Origin: Embleya hyalina | Lineage (GTDB): Bacteria > Actinomycetota > Actinomycetes > Streptomycetales > Streptomycetaceae | Direction of reading: 5' to 3' | DNA: 64,000 nucleotides | NCBI RefSeq assembly: GCF_003967355.1 | Contig: NZ_BIFH01000025.1 | Location: forward strand, 124,001-188,000 | Shown here: piece after piece, positions 23,471-34,542 of the stretch | Layout: the number at the start of each line of letters is the position of its first letter | How positions within the stretch are numbered: position 1 is the first letter of the stretch | Notes under the pieces: generated by a model | What the model saw: only the letters and a program-made list of their open reading frames with translations | What the model was told of the DNA's origin: nothing | The model's database searches: none | Made by a program: the position numbers and the translations under genes

Positions 23471-23667
23471 AGCAGTTGGCCTTCCGCTCCGCCCCCGGCG
23501 CCGGCCGCGCACGAGCGCCGAGGGTGCGGCGGTGGAGTCGCGCAACGGCGCCTCCCTGCCGTGAAACGGCGGAGGCGGATGGAGGCCGTCCGGCCAGGGC
23601 CGTTGGGATCGTCGATCGCGGGCAGGGATGCCCGTCCGTGACGCCGAGGCCACCGCCGGAGATCGAC

Positions 23668-24066
23668 ATGGTCGACGAACCACCCGCATCGCCCCACCTT
23701 CGCGAGACGATCCGTTGGAACGTGCCGCCCGAACCGGGCACCTTACGCCTGGTCCGGCACGCGGTCCGCGACACCCTCACCGCCTGGGGTTGGACCCACG
23801 AACGCGTCCACACCGCCGTGTGGGTGACCTCCGAACTCGTCGGCAACACCCTGCGCCACACCGATGCCGGCGCCGTGCTCACCCTGACGCCCGTCCCCCA
23901 CGGCGTCCGCCTGACCGTCACCGACACGTCCCCGTCCCCACCCGTCCGCCGGACCCCCGGCCCCGACGGCGGGCACGGGTTACGTGTCCTCGACGCCCTC
24001 GCCCCAGGGTGGACCGTCGAACTCCACCCGCACGGCAAGAGCATCCATGCCGACATCCGCACCTGA
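23668..24066 (+). CDS. RsbW-like anti-sigma factor / ATP-binding protein (HATPase_c_2)
   Basis: A 132-residue GHKL ATPase of the serine-kinase anti-sigma type, with N-box ELVGNTLRHTDAG and G-box around DGGHGLRVLD. Such proteins bind a sigma factor or phosphorylate a STAS antagonist in partner switching. The ATG follows GGAG by 7 bases. It lies at the edge of a block with PP2C, STAS and kinase genes, which suggests a shared network; the actual partner is unknown. Confidence 0.88.
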   Translation: MVDEPPASPHLRETIRWNVPPEPGTLRLVRHAVRDTLTAWGWTHERVHTAVWVTSELVGNTLRHTDAGAVLTLTPVPHGVRLTVTDTSPSPPVRRTPGPDGGHGLRVLDALAPGWTVELHPHGKSIHADIRT

Positions 24067-24483: not shown

Positions 24484-24685
24484 TTTTCCATATGCCCCGA
24501 GGCGGCGGCGCTCGGCCGTCGATAATCCGAGAACATCACCGCACCTCGAAATGAAAACCGACTCTCCGGGTAAAAATGAAAACAAGCCGGGACGGCCGTG
24601 AAGAATGCGGGAGTCATTCGCACCTCCACACGACCGCCCCGGCCCACGCGTCCCCGGACACCCGCATCGCGATTCCCGTGTCGGA

Positions 24686-27136
24686 TCAGGTGATCTGGAT
24701 GCCGACCACGCATGTGTCGTCGTCGGTGTCCGCCCGGCTGTGGGCGAGGAGTCGGTCGAGGCGTTCGTCCAGGGTGGCGGTGATGGCGCGTGCGGTGGCC
24801 AGGAGTTGATCAAGGGAGCTTTCGAGGCAGTGGTCGCGGCGCTCGATCAGGCCGTCGGTGTAGAGCAGGAGTGTGTCACCCAGGGCGAGGTGGATCTCGT
24901 CCTCGGCGTAGCCGGCCTCGGCGAACGCGCCGAGGAGGGGGCCGTCGAGCAGGGACAGGCGTTGCGTCGTGTCGTCGCGGATCCACACGGGGGGCAGGTG
25001 GCCGGCGCGGGCCCAGCGCATCGTGCGCGTGCCCGGGTCGTACAGGGCGCAGACGACGGTGGCGGTGACCTGGTCGGTCAGATGGAGCGTGACGGTGTTG
25101 AGCCAAGTGAGCAGTTGCGCGGGGCCGGCGCCGGTGATGGCGAGGCCGCGTAGCGCGTTGCGCAGCACGATCATGCTGGTCGCGGCGTGGATGCCGTGTC
25201 CGGCGACGTCGCCGACACACAGCAGGATCTTCTTGGACGGCAGGACGAGGGCGTCGTACCAGTCGCCGCCGACGGCGGTGTCGGATTCGGCGGGGCGGTA
25301 GCGCACGGCCACCTGGAGACCTTCGGCGTCCAGGGGGGCGGGTGTGGGCGGCATGATCGCGTGCTGGAGTTGCCGGGCCAGGCGGTTTTGTTCGCCCACC
25401 TGTTGTTCGCTGTGCGCGAGGCGGTCGCGGGTCGCGGCGAGGGCGACCTCGGTCCAGTGTTGGGCGGAGACGTCCTGGTGGGCGCCGCGGATGGCCAGCA
25501 GGCGGTCTTCGGCGTCCAGGACCGGTTCGGCGACGATCCGGATGCGTCGGGTGACGCCGTCGGTGCGTTCCAGGCGGAAGGAGACGGTGGCGTGGCGGCG
25601 GTGGTGTACCAGGGTGTGCAGGAATCGGGCGAGCGCGGCGGTGTCGTCGGGGTGTGCGTGGTTCGGCAGGTCGGCCAGGGCCACGGGGACGGCGGTGGTC
25701 GGCAGGCCGTGGAGGGCGAACAGGGAGTCGTTCCAGGTGACGGCGCCGGTGACGAGGTCTTCCTCGAAACCGCCGATGCGGCCCAGTCGTTGGGCGTGTT
25801 GGAGCAGCCGGGCGAGGCGGGCCGCCTCGTGTTCGATCCGCCAGATGAGCAGGATGGCGTTCGCGTGGCGGCTGACGGCGACGTCGGCGACGGCGTCGAG
25901 GCGGACGTCGTCGACGAGGGCGGTGAGCGTGACGCTTTCGGCGCGGTAGGACTCGCCGGTGGCATGGACACGCTCGACGATGTCGTACAGCCCGCCGGGG
26001 GTCGCGGCGAGGGGGTATGCCTCCAGGAGCAGGGCGCCGTGGATCAGATTGGCCGGGCGTCCGGCGGGGTCGAGGAAGCGCGCGTTGACGTGGTGCACCC
26101 GGAAGTCGACGAGTTGCCGGTGCTCGTCCTCGTGCGGAACGAGCACCAGGGCGGGGTCGTGGAGGCAGTCGGCGATCCCGACGAGGTCGACCGTGGCGGG
26201 GTGTGTGACGGTGGGGTCGCCGGGGGCCGGGTGGGTTTCGAGGGTGTGGGCGCACAGTTCGGCCAGGGCCTCGATCTGGCGGCGCAGGCGCGGGGGTTGC
26301 TCGGGGAGCGGATTCGGCCAGCAGATTTCCAGGATGCCGTGGATCCGGCCGCCGGTGCCTGCCGGAGCGGCGGCCCGGGCGCCGGTGAGGTCGTGTTGGC
26401 CGATGGAGGGTGTTGCGATCCGGGACAGGTCGGGGGTCCAGGTCCAGTCGAGATCGGCGAGGGCCCGGCGGGCGAAAGTCGCCACTCCGGGTGGGACGTG
26501 TCGCCAGCGGGTGGCCTCGTGGTCGGTGAATCCGGCGCTGCCCGCGAGGGTGAGGGAGGCGTCGGGGGCGATGGCCCACACGGCGACGGCGGTGGCGCCC
26601 AGGGGCGCGAGGGCGTGTTCGAGCAGGGATCGGGCCACGGCATGGGTGTCGTCGGCGGCACCGGCGCCGCTTTCCGCGGTACGCAGGCGCATGCTCACGG
26701 TCTTGCCGTCGGGGGGTGCGGCGGGGGTGGCGGTTTCGGTGACGAAGTCGCAGGCGGCTTCGGTGAGGCGGTCCGCGGCGGTGCGGTCGAGGATGTCGGC
26801 GGCGAGTTCCATCACGCTCACGCCGGCGTGGTCGGCCAGGGTGGCGAGTTGTCGGGCGGCTTCGGTGGGGCTGCAGTGCAGGCGTTCGATGAGGATGCCC
26901 TTGGCCGTCTCGATCAGGGCACGGCCGTCCGCTCGGGCGTGCGCGGCGCGGATCTCGCGGCGCAGGCGTTCGACGGTCGCGGCGAGGCGGCCCACGGCGG
27001 AGGCGCCGTCCAGGGCGCTCTCACCGCGCGGTGGTACGGCGGCGGCGCCCTGGTTCCCGGTGACGGCGTGCGGGCCCGTCGGGTCGTCGGCGTCCGGCCG
27101 GTGGGATGTCTCGGGTGGGGGTGCGGTGTTGCTCAC
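24686..27136 (-). CDS. ANTAR-GAF-PAS-PP2C multidomain phosphatase
   Basis: The 816-residue protein begins with an ANTAR-like helical region (~55-112, ALIETAKGILIERL), then a GAF-like domain (~150-300), two PAS-like domains (~318-430 and ~440-560), a short coiled coil and a C-terminal SpoIIE PP2C phosphatase (~590-815) with canonical VGGDWYD, VGDVAGHG and LLYTDG motifs. ANTAR domains normally bind RNA; joined to a phosphatase it may instead dimerise. GTG 27136 lies 7 bases after the hybrid kinase stop, so the two form an operon. Confidence 0.9.
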   Translation of the reverse strand: MSNTAPPPETSHRPDADDPTGPHAVTGNQGAAAVPPRGESALDGASAVGRLAATVERLRREIRAAHARADGRALIETAKGILIERLHCSPTEAARQLATLADHAGVSVMELAADILDRTAADRLTEAACDFVTETATPAAPPDGKTVSMRLRTAESGAGAADDTHAVARSLLEHALAPLGATAVAVWAIAPDASLTLAGSAGFTDHEATRWRHVPPGVATFARRALADLDWTWTPDLSRIATPSIGQHDLTGARAAAPAGTGGRIHGILEICWPNPLPEQPPRLRRQIEALAELCAHTLETHPAPGDPTVTHPATVDLVGIADCLHDPALVLVPHEDEHRQLVDFRVHHVNARFLDPAGRPANLIHGALLLEAYPLAATPGGLYDIVERVHATGESYRAESVTLTALVDDVRLDAVADVAVSRHANAILLIWRIEHEAARLARLLQHAQRLGRIGGFEEDLVTGAVTWNDSLFALHGLPTTAVPVALADLPNHAHPDDTAALARFLHTLVHHRRHATVSFRLERTDGVTRRIRIVAEPVLDAEDRLLAIRGAHQDVSAQHWTEVALAATRDRLAHSEQQVGEQNRLARQLQHAIMPPTPAPLDAEGLQVAVRYRPAESDTAVGGDWYDALVLPSKKILLCVGDVAGHGIHAATSMIVLRNALRGLAITGAGPAQLLTWLNTVTLHLTDQVTATVVCALYDPGTRTMRWARAGHLPPVWIRDDTTQRLSLLDGPLLGAFAEAGYAEDEIHLALGDTLLLYTDGLIERRDHCLESSLDQLLATARAITATLDERLDRLLAHSRADTDDDTCVVGIQIT

Positions 27137-27143
27137 GGCGGGT

Positions 27144-30100
27144 TCACTCCCGAAGGGGGGACGTCGGGCGGGGTCGACCGGCGGGGTGCTCTCGGGAGGG
27201 GAGCAGGTGGCGGCGGAGGACGGCGAGCAGGTGGTCGGTGTCGACGGGTTTGGTGACGTAGTCGGCGGCCCCGGCGGCCAGGCTCTTGTCGCGGTCGCCC
27301 GGCATGGCCTTGGCGGTGACGGCGATGATCGGCAGGTCGGCGTAGCGGGGCATGCGGCGGATTTCGGCGGTGGCGGCGTAGCCGTCCATCTCGGGCATCA
27401 TCACGTCCATCAGGACCAGGTCGACCTCGGGGTGCCCGACGAGGGTGGTGATGCCCTCGCGGCCGTTCTCGGCGTGCAGGACGTTGACGGCGTGGAGTTC
27501 GAGGATGCTGCTGAGGGCGTACAGGTTGCGGGTGTCGTCGTCGACGATCAGGACGGTGCGGTCGGCGAGGGCGGCGTCGAGGGTGGGTGTCGCGTGGTGG
27601 GTGCGTTCGGTGGCGTGCACCAGGGGCAGTACGTCACCGGGCTGTTCGGCGGACAGGTGCAGGGTGATGCGTTCGCGGAGTTCGTCCAGGCCCGCGAGCA
27701 GTTCCAGGGGTTTGGTGTCGGCGCGGGTCTGCAGGGCGCGGATCTGTTCCCGGGGCAGGCGACGGGTGTTGTGGGCCAGGACGGGCACGTTCGCGGAGGC
27801 GCTGTCGGCGTCGAGGGCGTCCAGGAGGGTCAGTGCCTGGCCGTCGGGCATGTCCAGGTCGAGGACGACGCAGTGACAGGGTGCGGCGGCGAGGGTGGCG
27901 GCGGCTTCCTGGGCGTCCACGACGGTCAGGACGTCGACGCCCGGCCCGCCGGCGCCGTCGTGTCCGCCGGCCGCGATGTCGGCCACGGCGCTTTGCGCGA
28001 CCAGGCTCAGCAGACCCTGGGGGCGTTCCTCCAGCACGAGTACGCGCCGCCGGGCGGGTGGCGCGGCGGGTTCGAGGGGGCGCGGCCGCGGTTCGGCGCC
28101 GGCATCGGGGGCGCCGGGGGCCGAAGGGTGCGTGACGAGTGCCGGGACGGCGGCCATGGCGGCGGTGGTGTGTACGGCGGGCAGGTACAGGGTGAAGGTG
28201 CTGCCCTGTCCGGGGGTGCTGTCGGCGGTGATGGCGCCGCCGAGCAGGTTGGCGATCTCGCGGCTGATCGACAGGCCGAGGCCGGTTCCGCCGTATTTGC
28301 GGCTGGTGGTGCCGTCGGCCTGTTGGAACGCGCCGAAGATCGTCTCGAGTTGGTGCTCGGCGATGCCCACCCCGGTGTCGCGCACGCGGAAGGCCACGAC
28401 GGCGTCACCGCCGCGCTGTACGCCGGCGGGGACCTCGTGGTCGGCGGCCGGTTCGATGCGCAGCGCGATGTGGCCACTGTCGGTGAATTTGACCGCGTTC
28501 GACAGCAGGTTGCGCAGGATCTGCCGCAGGCGTGAGTCGTCGGTGAGCAGGTCGGCCGGTATTCCGGGGCCGGTGGTGATGTCGAACGTCAGACTCTTTT
28601 GCGTGGTCATCGGCCGGAACGTCGCCTCGACGTAGTCGAGGAGTCGGCGTAGCGAAACGCGTTCGGTGTGGACGTCCATCTTGCCGGCCTCGACCTTGGA
28701 CAAATCGAGGACGTCGTTGATCAGTTGCAGCAGGTCGGAGCCGGCGGAGTGGATGATGCCCGCGTATTCGACCTGTTTGGGGCTGAGGTTGCGGGTGGGG
28801 TTCTGGGCGAGGAGTTGGGCGAGGATGAGCAGGCTGTTGAGGGGTGTGCGCAGTTCGTGGCTCATGTTCGCCAGGAACTCCGACTTGTACTTCGAGGCGA
28901 GGGTCAACTGGCGGGCGCGGTCCTCGAGTTCCTGTCGGGCCTGTTCGATCTGGAGGTTCTTGGCCTCGATGTCGCGGTTCTGCGTCGCGAGGAGCGCGGC
29001 CTTTTCCTCCAGTTCCTCGTTGGAGTGCTGGAGTTCCTCCTGCTGGTGCTGCAGTTCCTCGGAGCGCACGCTCAGTTCGCCGGCCAGGCGCTGGGATTCG
29101 GCGAGGAGTTCGTCGGTGCGCGCGTTGGCGACGATGGTGTTGACGTTGACACCGACGTTTTCCATCAACTGGTCGAGGAAGTCGCGATGCGTGGGGGTGA
29201 ACGCGGTGATCGACGCGAGTTCGATGACGCCGAGCACCTGGTCCTCGACCACGATCGGCAGCACGATCAGCGCGGTGGGCGCGGCGCGGCCGAGCCCGGA
29301 GGAGACCACGTAGTGGGTGGGGACGTCGTCGACGGCGATGATGCGCCGGCTGCGGGCCGCCTGGCCCACCAGGGTGCGCCCGGGCGGAATGCGCGTGGCG
29401 TGGCCGTCGTCCGCGCCGAGCCCGTACGCGCCGATCAGGCGCAGCCCCGTTCCGGTCGCGCTGTCCTCGGCGAGGTAGAAGGCACCGTACTGTGCGCCGA
29501 CCAGGGGGGTGAGTTCGTCCATCACGAGTTCGGCGACGACGGCCAGGTCGCGGTGACCCTGCATGAGCGCGGACACGCGGGCGAGGTTCGACTTGAGCCA
29601 GTCCTGTTCCTCGTTGGCGCGGGTGGTCTCGCGCAGCGAGCCGACCATCGCGTTGATGTTGTCCTTGAGTTCGGCGACCTCGCCGGAGGCGTCGACGGTG
29701 ATCGAGCGGGTCAGGTCGCCCTCGGCGACGGCGCTGGCGACCTCGGCGATGGCCCGGACCTGGCGGGTGAGGTTGCCGGCGAGTTCGTTGACGTTCTCGG
29801 TCAGGCGTTTCCACGTGCCCGAGACGCCCTCGACCTCGGCCTGTCCGCCGAGTCGCCCCTCGCTGCCGACCTCGCGCGCCACCCGGGTGACCTCGGCGGC
29901 GAAGGAGGAGAGCTGGTCGACCATGGTGTTGATGGTGGTCTTGAGCTCCAGGATCTCGCCGCGCGCGTCCACGTCGATCTTCTTCGACAGGTCGCCGTTG
30001 GCCACCGCGGTGGTGACCAGGGCGATGTTGCGGACCTGGCCGGTGAGGTTGTTCGCCATCGAGTTGACGTTGTCGGTCAGGTCCTTCCAGGTCCCGGCGA

Positions 30101-30941
30101 CGTTGGGCACGCGGGCCTGGCCGCCGAGGATGCCCTCGGTGCCGACCTCGCGGGCGACCCGGGTGACCTCGTCGGCGAACGCGGACAGGGTGTCGACCAT
30201 GGTGTTGATCACCTCGGCGAGGGCGGCCACCTCGCCCTTGGCCTCGACGGTGATCTTGCGGGAGAGGTCGCCGCGCGCCACGGCGGTGGCGACCTGGGCG
30301 ATGGAACGCACCTGGCCGGTGAGGTTGGAGGCCATCACGTTGACGTTGTCGGTGAGGTCCTTCCAGGTGCCGGACGCGCCGCGCACGGTCGCCTGTCCGC
30401 CGAGGTTGCCCTCGGTGCCGACCTCCCGGGCGACCCGGGTGACCTCGTCGGCGAACGCGGAGAGCTGGTCGACCATCGTGTTGATGGTCTCCTTCAACTC
30501 CAGGATCTCGCCCCGCGCGTCCACCCGGACCTTCTGCGACAGGTCGCCGCGCGCCACCGCCGTGGCGACCTGGGCGATGGAGCGCACCTGGGACGTGAGG
30601 TTGCCGGCCATGAAGTTCACCGAATCGGTCAGATCGGCCCACGTGCCCGACACGCCCGGCACGAGCGCCTGACCGCCGAGGGTGCCCTCCGACCCGACCT
30701 CGCGTGCCACGCGGGTGACTTCGGAGGTGAACAGCGCCAGTTGGTCGACCATGCCGTTGAACACCCCGGCGATCTCCCCGAGCAGGCCGTCGCCGTCGTC
30801 GGGCAACCGGCCGCCGAAGTCGCCGTCGCGTACGGCGGTCAACCCGGCCAGCAGGCGGCGCAGTTCGGCGTTGCCCACGACGTCCGTCTCGTGCCGTGCC
30901 CGCGCGGGAGGCACGAGCCCGGTGTCCGCGTCATCGGTCAT
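27144..30941 (-). CDS. Multi-HAMP hybrid histidine kinase with two receiver domains
   Basis: The 1265-residue protein has five HAMP units (~60-480; four nearly identical, each ~92 residues), a GAF domain (~500-650), a coiled coil rich in Glu/Gln, a HisKA domain with [11 protein letters not shown], an HATPase domain with NAVKFTDSG and two C-terminal receivers. The last receiver has LIVDDD and [10 protein letters not shown]; the first ([14 protein letters not shown]) is degenerate. No transmembrane segment is seen, so it is soluble, like fungal group III kinases. ATG 30941 follows GGTGGAG. It heads an operon with the ANTAR-PP2C gene. Confidence 0.93.
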
Positions 30942-31235
30942 GTGCTCCACCCTCGCCTCGGTCGCCGGTTCCCCGGGAATTCGCCCCTGTTCCGCGGAGC
31001 CCCCGCGCATCCTCGCCACGCGCCCACCCGACGACACGCGGTCGGCGGAACCGACGCACACGGCCACGTGGTCTTGGGCATGCCGATATCGGCCTTTCGC
31101 GTGATGGTCGACCTCCTCGACGCCGGGACAGGCCCAACAGAGCGGTACTTATACGGCTTAAATGGAGAATTGCCCGTTTTCTTCCCAGTGTTGCGTATGG
31201 CTGGAGCATAGGACACGGTTGCAGGAAGACAACTG
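30942..31235. promoter_or_regulatory. Divergent promoter region of the signalling block
   Basis: This 294-base gap separates the divergent kinase and PP2C operons. Its right part (31145-31215) is AT-rich for this genome and a perfect 12-bp palindrome GCCGATATCGGC lies at 31082-31093. No well-spaced -35/-10 pair could be assigned. Confidence 0.45.
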
Positions 31236-32963
31236 TTGTCCAGCGATAAAGAGGTGGTGGGGTGCGCGCGACGCGTTCCCCGGCTTGTGATCCGTACTTC
31301 GGGTACACCCAAGACCCCCCGCGATGGTGACGTTCACGTCGGCTCGATCTGGAACGACGCCCCCTGTCCCGTTCTCGTCGTCGACGCCGACGGCGACGTC
31401 ATCGGATCCAACGAAGGCGCGCGCCGGTTGTTCGCGCACGCCGAGGAGGTCGGCGAAGGCCTGACCGCGGGCGGCCTGCCGCACTGGCTCGCGCGGGCGC
31501 ACCACCGCCCGCACCCGGCCGCGGCACCGCAGGAGGCGGTGTCGGGCACCGTGGCGGGTCGGACGTTCGCGGCGCATCCCTCGCGGATCGAGAACGGGGA
31601 CGTGGTGTGGTGGCTCGTGGAGGACACCGATCTCCGTCGAGCCGAGCAGGAGCTGCGCCACGAGCGTGAACGAGCCGCACTGTTGGCGGACGTCTCCGGC
31701 GCACTGCTGTCGTCGCTGAACCTCGAACGATGCGCGGAGGTGACGGCGCGGATGGCCGCGGATCACCTGGCCGACGCCGCGGTCGTCGTCGCCCCGGCCC
31801 AGGGTCGCCGGCACGCGCTGACCTACGCGCAGGGCGGCGGCGGCATCACGCGTACCGTGGCCTCGATCGATCCGCGCACGGTTCCCGGACTGGCGGAGGC
31901 CCTGCAGGGTTTCCCACCGGTCCCGGCCCGGTGGATCGACCCGGACGACATCCCGGACTGGAGTGTGCCGCCCGGTTTCGCAGGTCCGATCGGCTCGGTG
32001 ATCGTCACCCCGCTGCCCGGACACGGAGTACCGGCCGGGGTGCTGATCCTGCTGCGCGCGAGCACCCACCGGGCGTTCACGGACGGCGAGGAGGTCTTCG
32101 CGCGGCTGTTCGCCGCACGGGCCGGCGCCGCCCTGTCCGCGGCACGGCTGTACGCGGAGCAGGCCTCGATCACGACCACGCTGCTGCGGGAGTTGCTGCC
32201 GCCGCGGCTGGAGCGGGTGCACGGCGTGGAGTACGCCGGCGTCTACCGGACCTCGCAGGACCACGAGCGGGTCGGCGGTGACTTCTACGACGTCCATCCC
32301 GGTGCCGACGCGTCCCGGGAGACGTTCGTCGTGCTGGGCGACGTGGCGGGCAAGGGCCTGGAGGCGGCCGTCCTGACCGGAAAGATCCGCAGTGTCCTGC
32401 ACGCGCTGTTGCCGCTGTCCGGGGATCACCAGCAGGTCCTCGTCCTGCTCAACGACGCTTTGATGAACTCCCACCACACCCGGTTCGCGACCCTGGTACT
32501 GGCCTCCGTGCGGCGCAGCGCGGGGCAGGTGTTGCTGCGGCTGACCAGCGCCGGACATCTGCCGCCGCTGATCGTCCGCGCCGACGGGCGGGTGGAGGAA
32601 GCCGCGACCGGCGGCACGCTCGTGGGGGCGCTGCCCGACGTCCGGACGCGGAGCGTGGACGTGGTGCTGGCCCCCGGAGAGACCTGCCTGCTGTACACGG
32701 ACGGGATCACCGAGGCGCGCGGCGGGCCGCTGGGTGACGACTTCTACGGCGAGGAGCGGCTGCGGGAGGCCCTGCGGGAGTGTGCGCGCATGCCGGCGGA
32801 GGCCGTGGTCGAGCGGGTACAGATGCTGGCGGCCCAGTGGCTGGGCGGCGGCCGTCACGACGACATGGCCACGCTGGCGATCACCAACCCGGCCGGCGGG
32901 GTCGACGGATTCGCCGTCGCGGACGATCGCGAGGGCCGCGAGCCATGCCGGCGGGAACCGTGA
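31236..32963 (+). CDS. PAS-GAF-PP2C phosphatase
   Basis: A 575-residue protein with a PAS-like N-terminus (~35-130), a GAF domain (~145-300) and a complete SpoIIE PP2C domain (~325-555; VGGDFYDV, GDVAGKG, LLYTDGITEA, GGGRHDDM). The start is uncertain: TTG 31236 has AGGAAG upstream, and GTGs at 31254 and 31287 are in frame. It is the first gene of an operon with the cobalamin-binding and STAS proteins and is the obvious phosphatase for the STAS partner. Its stop overlaps the next start (TGATG). Confidence 0.88.
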   Translation: MSSDKEVVGCARRVPRLVIRTSGTPKTPRDGDVHVGSIWNDAPCPVLVVDADGDVIGSNEGARRLFAHAEEVGEGLTAGGLPHWLARAHHRPHPAAAPQEAVSGTVAGRTFAAHPSRIENGDVVWWLVEDTDLRRAEQELRHERERAALLADVSGALLSSLNLERCAEVTARMAADHLADAAVVVAPAQGRRHALTYAQGGGGITRTVASIDPRTVPGLAEALQGFPPVPARWIDPDDIPDWSVPPGFAGPIGSVIVTPLPGHGVPAGVLILLRASTHRAFTDGEEVFARLFAARAGAALSAARLYAEQASITTTLLRELLPPRLERVHGVEYAGVYRTSQDHERVGGDFYDVHPGADASRETFVVLGDVAGKGLEAAVLTGKIRSVLHALLPLSGDHQQVLVLLNDALMNSHHTRFATLVLASVRRSAGQVLLRLTSAGHLPPLIVRADGRVEEAATGGTLVGALPDVRTRSVDVVLAPGETCLLYTDGITEARGGPLGDDFYGEERLREALRECARMPAEAVVERVQMLAAQWLGGGRHDDMATLAITNPAGGVDGFAVADDREGREPCRREP

Positions 32964-34132
32964 TGACGAGCACTGTGAAGGCAAGCACTGTGAAGACGGG
33001 CACTGTGAAGACGGGCACTGTCACGACGGGCACCGTGAACGCGGCGAAGGGGACGGCGGACACCGCGGCCCCGCCCACACCCTCCGATCTCGCGGAGCGA
33101 CTGTGGACGGCCGTGATCGGCCGGGACGAGCCGGCCGCGATGGCGCTGGCCACCGCGGCGGCCGATGCCGGGGCCGACGGCGAGACCCTGCTGCTGGACG
33201 TCGTGGCCGCCGTGCAGCGCCGCGTCGGGCACGAATGGGCGGCGAACCGGATCGGGGTCGCCGAGGAGCACGCGGCCACCGCGATCATCGACCGGGTCGT
33301 CACCGTCCTGGCCCACCGCCCCACGCCGCCTCCGTCCCGGACGCGGGGCAACGTCACGGTCGCGTGCGTGGATGGCGAATGGCATTCCCTGCCCGCCCGG
33401 TTGCTGGCCGAGACCCTCACCGGGCGCGGCTGGCGGGTGGACTTCCTCGGCGCCCACACCCCGACTCCGCACCTGATCGCGCACGTGCATCAGAGCAACC
33501 CGGCCGCCGCCCTGCTCTCGGCCTCGCTGCCCACTCACCTGCCCACCGCACACCAGGCGGTGACCGCCGTGCAGTCGCTGGGCATCCCGGTCATGGTCGG
33601 CGGCGCCGCCTTCGGCACGGACGGGCGCTACGCCCGCCTTCTGGGAGCCGACGCCTGGGCCCCCGACGCGCGAGGCGCCGCGGACCGGCTGGCCCGGGGG
33701 ATCACCGCCCGGCACGCGGAGCGACGCCACGAGATCGACGACCTGCCCCATCTGGCCGATCAGGAGTACACGTTCGTCAAGTCCAACCGCACCACCCTGG
33801 TGCGGCGGTGTCTGGCCGCCCTCGACGAGCGCGGGCCCGACACGCGCGCGTACAGCGCCGCCCAGCGCGAACGAACCGCCGAGGACCTGGCCCACATCGT
33901 GGACTTCCTCGCGACGGCCCTCTACGTCGACGAGGCGGACCTGTTCACGTCCTTCATCGGCTGGACGAGGGACATACTCACCGCCCGCAACGTGCCCGCG
34001 GCCGGTTTGCGCCTGGGGCTGGACATCCTCACCGAACAACTGCGCGACTTTCCCCGCGCGCTCGGCTTCATCCGCGTCGCGATCGACACCCTGCCCACGG
34101 CGCCCGCCCACTCCGGCCCTGGAACGGCATGA
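32963..34132 (+). CDS. CarH-like cobalamin-binding (B12) sensor protein
   Basis: After a low-complexity repeat (1-26), residues ~40-118 form the helical cap of B12-binding proteins with the Wx9EH motif (Trp92, Glu102, His103) that contacts adenosylcobalamin in the photoreceptor CarH. Residues ~130-225 form the Rossmann B12 domain; the ligand motif reads EWHSLP (His141), with Pro where ExHxxG has Gly. Residues ~265-389 form a helical output domain. No DNA-binding region is present, unlike CarH. The gene overlaps both neighbours, so it is translationally coupled to PP2C and STAS. Light or cobalamin sensing is inferred. Confidence 0.88.
   Translation: MTSTVKASTVKTGTVKTGTVTTGTVNAAKGTADTAAPPTPSDLAERLWTAVIGRDEPAAMALATAAADAGADGETLLLDVVAAVQRRVGHEWAANRIGVAEEHAATAIIDRVVTVLAHRPTPPPSRTRGNVTVACVDGEWHSLPARLLAETLTGRGWRVDFLGAHTPTPHLIAHVHQSNPAAALLSASLPTHLPTAHQAVTAVQSLGIPVMVGGAAFGTDGRYARLLGADAWAPDARGAADRLARGITARHAERRHEIDDLPHLADQEYTFVKSNRTTLVRRCLAALDERGPDTRAYSAAQRERTAEDLAHIVDFLATALYVDEADLFTSFIGWTRDILTARNVPAAGLRLGLDILTEQLRDFPRALGFIRVAIDTLPTAPAHSGPGTA
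32966..33040 (+). repeat. Five tandem 15-bp repeats coding TSTVK/TGTVK
   Basis: Directly after the start codon, five in-frame 15-base units encode TSTVK, ASTVK, TGTVK, TGTVT and TGTVN. Units 2-4 are almost identical at DNA level, so copy number could vary by slippage without changing frame. Confidence 0.85.
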
Positions 34133-34542
34133 ACTCCCCCACGCCCGTCGAGTTCTCCGTCGACGTTCAGTCCGGCGACACCCGGTCGCTGCATCTGGCC
34201 ATTCGGGGAGAGCTCGAGTACGACACCGGTACCGCGTTCACCGAGCGGGTGAACGCGGTACTGGACACACATCTGCGACGGCACGGACCGGCGCTGCGTC
34301 ATCTGCACCTGGACTGGGAGGGCCTGACCGCCATCGACTGCGGCGGGTTGTCCGTCCTGATCGGACTGCGCCGCCGCACACACGCCGCCGGCATCGCCCT
34401 GCACCTGCACCGTCAACCCGCGCGACTGACCCGCCTGCTCGACGTCACCGGCGTCGGCGGATACCTCACCGAGGCCACCGACACGGATGGGCGCGGCCTC
34501 TCCGCAGGGGGTGACGGAGGCCGGTCGGCGCCCTCTCCCTGA
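34129..34542 (+). CDS. STAS-domain protein (anti-sigma factor antagonist-like)
   Basis: The 137-residue protein is a single STAS domain (~8-115) with a short disordered tail. At the phosphorylation loop, where SpoIIAA has Asp-Ser-Ser-Gly-Leu, this protein reads Asp70-Cys71-Gly-Gly-Leu, so the usual phosphoserine is missing. It may be permanently 'active', or act as an adaptor. The start overlaps the B12-protein stop (ATGA); it is the last gene of the operon. Confidence 0.88.
   Translation: MNSPTPVEFSVDVQSGDTRSLHLAIRGELEYDTGTAFTERVNAVLDTHLRRHGPALRHLHLDWEGLTAIDCGGLSVLIGLRRRTHAAGIALHLHRQPARLTRLLDVTGVGGYLTEATDTDGRGLSAGGDGGRSAPSP

Follow-up and report, generated by a model that had tools for sequence, protein, structure and literature searches.

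A stand-alone photocobilin encoded with a PP2C phosphatase in Embleya hyalina: a candidate light-controlled partner in trans

What does a predicted light sensor control when it carries no recognizable DNA-binding domain and its gene is wedged between those of a phosphatase and a STAS protein? The question is raised by an operon in a stretch of Embleya hyalina DNA of 64,000 nucleotides (contig NZ_BIFH01000025.1, positions 124,001 to 188,000), the whole of which we call the window. Three overlapping open reading frames (ORFs) encode in this order a PAS-GAF-PP2C phosphatase, a B12 photoreceptor-type protein and a STAS protein. The stop codon TGA of the phosphatase gene (32961-32963) overlaps the start of the next gene, either GTG at 32960 or ATG at 32963, and the second junction is ATGA at 34129. 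A first-pass annotation, made from the sequence alone, had read three overlapping genes with TGATG and ATGA junctions here, and the coordinates confirmed the ORFs and their overlaps. The genes are as follows.

31236..32963, + strand: PAS-GAF-PP2C phosphatase of the SpoIIE/RsbU-type PPM family
32963..34132, + strand (alternative start GTG at 32960): stand-alone photocobilin, a predicted adenosylcobalamin and biliverdin photoreceptor
34129..34542, + strand: STAS-domain protein (STAS_2, 4.1e-11) with Cys in place of the phospho-acceptor Ser (codon TGC 34339-34341, motif I-D-C-G-G-L)

Family assignment of the B12 protein

The B12 protein had been labelled CarH-like, and a photoglobin at about residues 262-375 had been overlooked; the family proved to be that of the photocobilins. 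A phmmer comparison with SasPcob of Saccharothrix syringae (PDB 8J2W/8J2X; PMC10979010) matched residues 45-366 with E=1.5e-76, as against 1.2e-10 for CarH. The two are full-length homologues, about 45% identical over 320 residues, with the same domain order, B12 and bilin-site residues and stand-alone architecture. Foldseek aligned the AlphaFold2 model (predicted local distance difference test score, pLDDT, 83) with 8J2W over its whole length (template modelling score 0.89, target-normalised, about 340 columns), whereas the CarH fold matched only the first two thirds. The last third holds the photoglobin domain, for which no Pfam model exists. The parts of the protein are located as follows.

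33083..33310, + strand: four-helix-bundle cap, residues 41-116 (B12-binding_2, 1.4e-11)
33236-33238 and 33266-33271, + strand: adenosyl-pocket motif W-x9-EH in the cap, Trp92 and Glu102-His103
33350..33676, + strand: B12-binding Rossmann domain, residues 130-238 (B12-binding, 4.1e-17)
33383-33385, + strand: His141, predicted Co ligand
33470-33472, + strand: His170, equivalent of SasPcob His137, a contact to the bilin in the second monomer
33746..34087, + strand: photoglobin, a biliverdin-binding globin domain, residues 262-375 (SasPcob globin alignment and 8J2W fold match)
33884-33886 and 33962-33964, + strand: bilin-site Asp308 and Trp334

Trp92, Glu102, His103 and His141, which the first-pass annotation had placed correctly, aligned with SasPcob W61, E71, H72 and H108, all identical, and were kept in 60, 61, 61 and 60 of 61 aligned sequences, respectively. 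His141 ends an E/DxH motif (E139-W-H141). Likewise, His170, Asp308 and Trp334 were identical to SasPcob H137, D270 and W296, and the bilin-site residues were kept in 47-49 of the 61 aligned relatives. The roles of the SasPcob residues in B12, adenosyl and bilin contacts were taken from PMC10979010, which gives a bilin-site His in place of Asp as the probable reason why AbPcob binds bilin weakly. All photocobilin features that a sequence can reveal were present, namely the B12 core motifs, a joined photoglobin and the bilin-site residues, and by sequence and structural model the protein is a stand-alone photocobilin. The genome also encodes a heme oxygenase (1.6e-48) and a CobA/CobO corrinoid adenosyltransferase (1.7e-60), so that both biliverdin and adenosylcobalamin (AdoCbl) can be expected.

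CarH/LitR (PDB 5C8D) shares the B12-binding core and the W-x9-EH/His ligand motif, but the window protein lacks the MerR-type DNA-binding domain, has the extra photoglobin and scored 53.9 bits against a cut-off of 400 with the CarH model. Consistent with the earlier claim that it has no DNA-binding domain, Pfam gave no helix-turn-helix match in the protein, the N-terminus of which is a low-confidence repeat tail. This low-complexity tail of 40 residues (STVKTGTVKT), absent from SasPcob, is encoded by a 15-bp tandem repeat of 5.3 copies (32960-33039), and its frame is not conserved in a sister species. A second photocobilin of the same genome (L083), 35% identical, has its own upstream PP2C gene and two STAS genes on the opposite strand; its bilin-site Asp is replaced by Gly and the equivalent of His137 by Glu, and related copies occur in the other species of the genus.

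Conservation of the phosphatase-photocobilin pair

The phosphatase gave a SpoIIE/PP2C match of 4.9e-42 in Pfam, with all metal motifs intact (GGDFYD, GDVAGKG, LYTDGI and DDMA), and thus has the SpoIIE/PPM domain that defines an RsbU-type phosphatase. GAF (1.3e-4) and PAS_4 (1.3e-3) were both sub-threshold, but the AlphaFold2 model (mean pLDDT 81) has a PAS-like domain, a GAF-like domain, a helix and the PPM domain, which upheld the earlier PAS-GAF-PP2C assignment. The link between GAF and PP2C is one long helix of 38 residues (283-320). The closest folds were the RsbU domain of Rv1364c, RssB, SiaA and SpoIIE.

Of 395 genomes from the class, 65 carried a photocobilin, as did 150 of 395 from the family. 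The photocobilin neighbourhood was surveyed in 121 loci (the window, 60 loci from the class survey and 60 mostly from the family) and in 80 named loci of an independent collection; the two sets have species in common, so neither can serve as an independent sample of the other, and both are biased towards close relatives of the query. The first-pass annotation had proposed comparing operon conservation across actinomycete genomes, and in the comparison 115/121 and 79/80 loci had a same-strand PP2C gene immediately upstream of the photocobilin. Among the first 61 loci, the five without it lay at contig edges or outside the main clade, one being a fragment. About 40 SpoIIE domains occur in this 12-Mb genome, which, assuming about 10,000 genes, places one directly upstream by chance for about 0.4% of genes. 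A STAS gene lay downstream in 89 of the 121 loci and in 69 of the 80. Given these counts of the upstream gene against its base rate, the phosphatase and the photocobilin are a conserved unit, to which STAS is a usual but optional addition.

In most loci the PP2C stop and the photocobilin start overlap, usually by 4 bp, as ATGA or GTGA. Mean identity among relatives was 0.38 for STAS versus 0.59-0.61 for PP2C and photocobilin. On an independently annotated plasmid of Streptomyces microflavus, genes for PP2C, a cobalamin-dependent protein, STAS and MarR stand in a row with 4-bp overlaps, and a second plasmid has the same gene order. The pair was found across Streptomyces, Mycobacterium, Amycolatopsis, Actinomadura, Nocardioides and others. 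Eight mycobacterial loci, including those of M. europaeum, M. nebraskense, M. scrofulaceum and M. iranicum, carry the PP2C-photocobilin-STAS operon with the Ser intact; a paper on the light transcriptome of M. kansasii does not mention B12, STAS or phosphatase.

Photocobilins were characterised in 2024, when STAS, SpoIIE and PP2C proteins were named from STRING as potential partners of SasPcob in Saccharothrix (PMC10979010); the earlier statement that no system of this form had been described was therefore mistaken. Those partners came from STRING, whereas the window operon, with its overlapping PP2C gene, was read directly. To this the present analysis adds a count showing that the PP2C partner is nearly invariant, synteny of the operon with an RsbW-like gene and the repeated loss of the phospho-acceptor in STAS. 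The same paper called the function of stand-alone photocobilins less clear (PMC10979010); the near-constant pairing suggests what they control, since a near-invariant overlapping phosphatase points to one specific enzyme as their partner.

Proposed control of the phosphatase and its alternatives

The STAS protein has the fold of an RsbV/SpoIIAA-type antagonist, but lacks the phosphorylatable Ser/Thr: in an alignment with SpoIIAA and relatives, Cys (GAC TGC, 34336-34341) occupies the position of SpoIIAA Ser58 and SypA Ser56. The operon of the sister species, 88% identical, has GAC TCC (Ser) at this site, one base change away. Ser or Thr was found in 82 of 88 scorable relatives and Ser in 62 of 68, the remainder having Ala, Pro or Arg. 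Since Ser56 is the phospho-acceptor of SypA and its change to Ala makes SypA constitutively active (PMC10120452), the STAS of the window probably remains permanently in the unphosphorylated, binding-competent state. The ratio of nonsynonymous to synonymous substitution rates (dN/dS) against the sister was 0.43 for STAS, the highest of the genes measured, 0.38 for photocobilin and 0.19 for PP2C; hence none of the three genes looks abandoned, though STAS is the least constrained. The first-pass annotation had placed the output in protein-protein control of a sigma/anti-sigma network. A protein-protein output is still the best reading, because there is no DNA-binding domain and the operon with PP2C, and usually STAS, is conserved, whereas the Cys casts doubt on a canonical sigma/anti-sigma switch through phosphorylation of STAS in this genome.

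We propose, with a probability of roughly 0.6, that the photocobilin is a light-controlled partner in trans of the RsbT/RsbQ type, which would set the activity of the PP2C phosphatase as an activator or an inhibitor; the proposal combines sequence, models and analogy. In the dark, the photocobilin would be a head-to-tail dimer with bound AdoCbl (base-off, His141-on) and biliverdin. Absorption of green light, or of red light by the bilin, would cleave the Co-C bond, set adenosyl free and take the dimer apart, and the dark and light states would contact the phosphatase made from the same message differently. The long GAF-PP2C helix may be a coiled-coil-type linker, as used by RsbT on RsbU and probably by RsbQ on RsbP. 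RsbT orders the RsbU linker, upon which the phosphatase dimerises and is activated, and the same logic has been proposed for RsbP/RsbQ and for diguanylate cyclases (PMC12143880); in their light state, photocobilins switch on a diguanylate cyclase in trans (PMC10979010). By analogy, we infer that the photocobilin acts through the linker helix. The operon STAS would be the substrate of the phosphatase in most relatives, and its dephosphorylation would free a sigma factor or other target from an RsbW-like kinase. In this genome, STAS has no phosphorylatable residue at the usual site, and the phosphatase would probably act on another STAS protein.

The arrangement resembles RsbU/RsbT and RsbP/RsbQ of Bacillus subtilis (PMC12143880) in that a PPM phosphatase carries a sensor at its N-terminus and a helical linker, and in the partner in trans and STAS antagonist proposed here. 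It differs in that the partner is a predicted photoreceptor, unrelated in sequence to RsbT and RsbQ, and in that the window STAS lacks the phospho-acceptor Ser. Light control of an enzyme by a photocobilin, proposed here for the window, is also found in the diguanylate cyclase fusion AbDPcob (PMC10979010), which, unlike the stand-alone window protein with its bilin-site Asp, is joined to GGDEF and has His at that site. If our proposal is true, B12/bilin light sensing would be tied to a phosphatase of the general-stress type, giving a green/red-light switch for a protein phosphatase. A wider version, which is possible but rather doubtful, holds that the stand-alone photocobilins of actinomycetes are dedicated light partners of one PPM phosphatase type, and that in some lineages, including this one, STAS became fixed in the unphosphorylated state and the phosphatase was rewired to another substrate.

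The distance matrices of photocobilin and PP2C correlated with r=0.93 over 175 pairs (0.68 over 139 pairs for photocobilin and STAS), in favour of the phosphatase as partner, but this comparison has no species-tree control, and shared history alone could yield much of the correlation. Several observations weigh against control of the phosphatase by the photocobilin. Some photocobilins have no PP2C gene; on a plasmid of Streptomyces sp. SGAir0924, for instance, one is followed immediately by gas-vesicle genes. The loci surveyed contained no reliable fusion of PP2C to photocobilin; one candidate (L205) looks like a frameshift and was not used as proof of contact. Moreover, with Cys in STAS, the simplest phosphatase substrate is missing in this genome.

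The same genes may be read in other ways. The photocobilin might sense cobalamin, biliverdin as a product of heme breakdown, or redox state for PP2C, with ligand occupancy rather than photolysis setting the activity and light being incidental. AdoCbl binding reduced cyclase activity relative to the apo protein even in the dark, biliverdin occupancy inverted the SasPcob effect (PMC10979010), and streptomycetes live in soil, where there is little light. We consider this unlikely, however, as the Trp, Glu and His of the adenosyl pocket, whose role in CarH and SasPcob is light-triggered adenosyl release, are almost never lost, and the bilin site, by which the response is widened to include red light, is largely kept alongside them. 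An ordinary corrinoid methyl carrier like MtaC, MtbC or MetH is highly improbable and was rejected on motif and family scores: corrinoid models matched weakly and far under the cut-off (e.g. TIGR02370, 1.1e-8), the CarH model scored better (1.6e-14) and photocobilins far better, the W-x9-EH pocket and the photoglobin do not fit such a carrier, and there is no adjoining methyltransferase.

Direct action of the photocobilin on STAS or the RsbW-like kinase would suit the overlap of the STAS gene with the photocobilin gene in the window, its frequent place just downstream elsewhere, the RsbW gene adjoining the operon in the sister species and some Streptomyces, and the common descent of photoglobins and the globin domain found in RsbR, a stressosome protein (PMC10151467). 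Yet 32 of the 121 loci have no downstream STAS and STAS diverges more than its neighbours, whereas PP2C is almost always present, which makes this route quite unlikely. It is equally improbable that the module is degrading in this lineage and the operon is no longer a switch. The lost phospho-acceptor, the high dN/dS of STAS and the missing bilin-site Asp of the second photocobilin would agree with decay, but the three genes are open and complete, dN/dS is lower for PP2C and photocobilin, and the active-site residues of both are intact.

The RsbW-like gene and the 5' end of the operon

The RsbW-like protein that the first-pass annotation had reported near 23668 is encoded by a real gene.

23656..24066, + strand: RsbW-like HATPase_c_2 protein (Pfam 1.5e-6), candidate kinase/anti-sigma partner; adjoins the operon in the sister species

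In the window, it is parted from the operon by a 6.5-kb block (24652-31164) that contains, on the minus strand, genes for a multi-HAMP, GAF hybrid histidine kinase and for an ANTAR-PAS-PP2C protein. The sister species is without the block and has RsbW about 1 kb upstream of the operon, so the block was either gained in the window lineage or lost in the sister. RsbW also lies close upstream of the operon in several other Streptomyces. Loss of the phospho-Ser was compared with an adjacent RsbW gene, and the association (Fisher p 0.03 and 0.06, uncorrected for shared ancestry) is suggestive only.

The TTG start of the PP2C gene at 31236 is doubtful, as GTG at 31287 and other in-frame starts are present. 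Two features stand out at 31226-31330. The called TTG lies within reach of a perfect inverted repeat, GACAAC-T-GTTGTC, which overlaps it, and the 5' end of PP2C is overlapped by a short ORF that has a good ribosome site and reads VRATRSPACDPYFGYTQDPPRW. The SPACDxFxGY-like peptide of this ORF recurs in several relatives; the ORF may encode a leader peptide or indicate that the PP2C start was wrongly assigned. A scan for sigma-70 promoters and terminators gave no match. A sigma-B-type promoter-like motif, GNNT-N14-16-GGGTAC, precedes PP2C in 11 of the 55 loci scanned, including the window (31287-31310), against a mean of 0.8 and a maximum of 3 in shuffled sequences, a count that ignores shared ancestry. 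The motif lies at two fixed positions in two subclades, and in the window clade its bases are coding.

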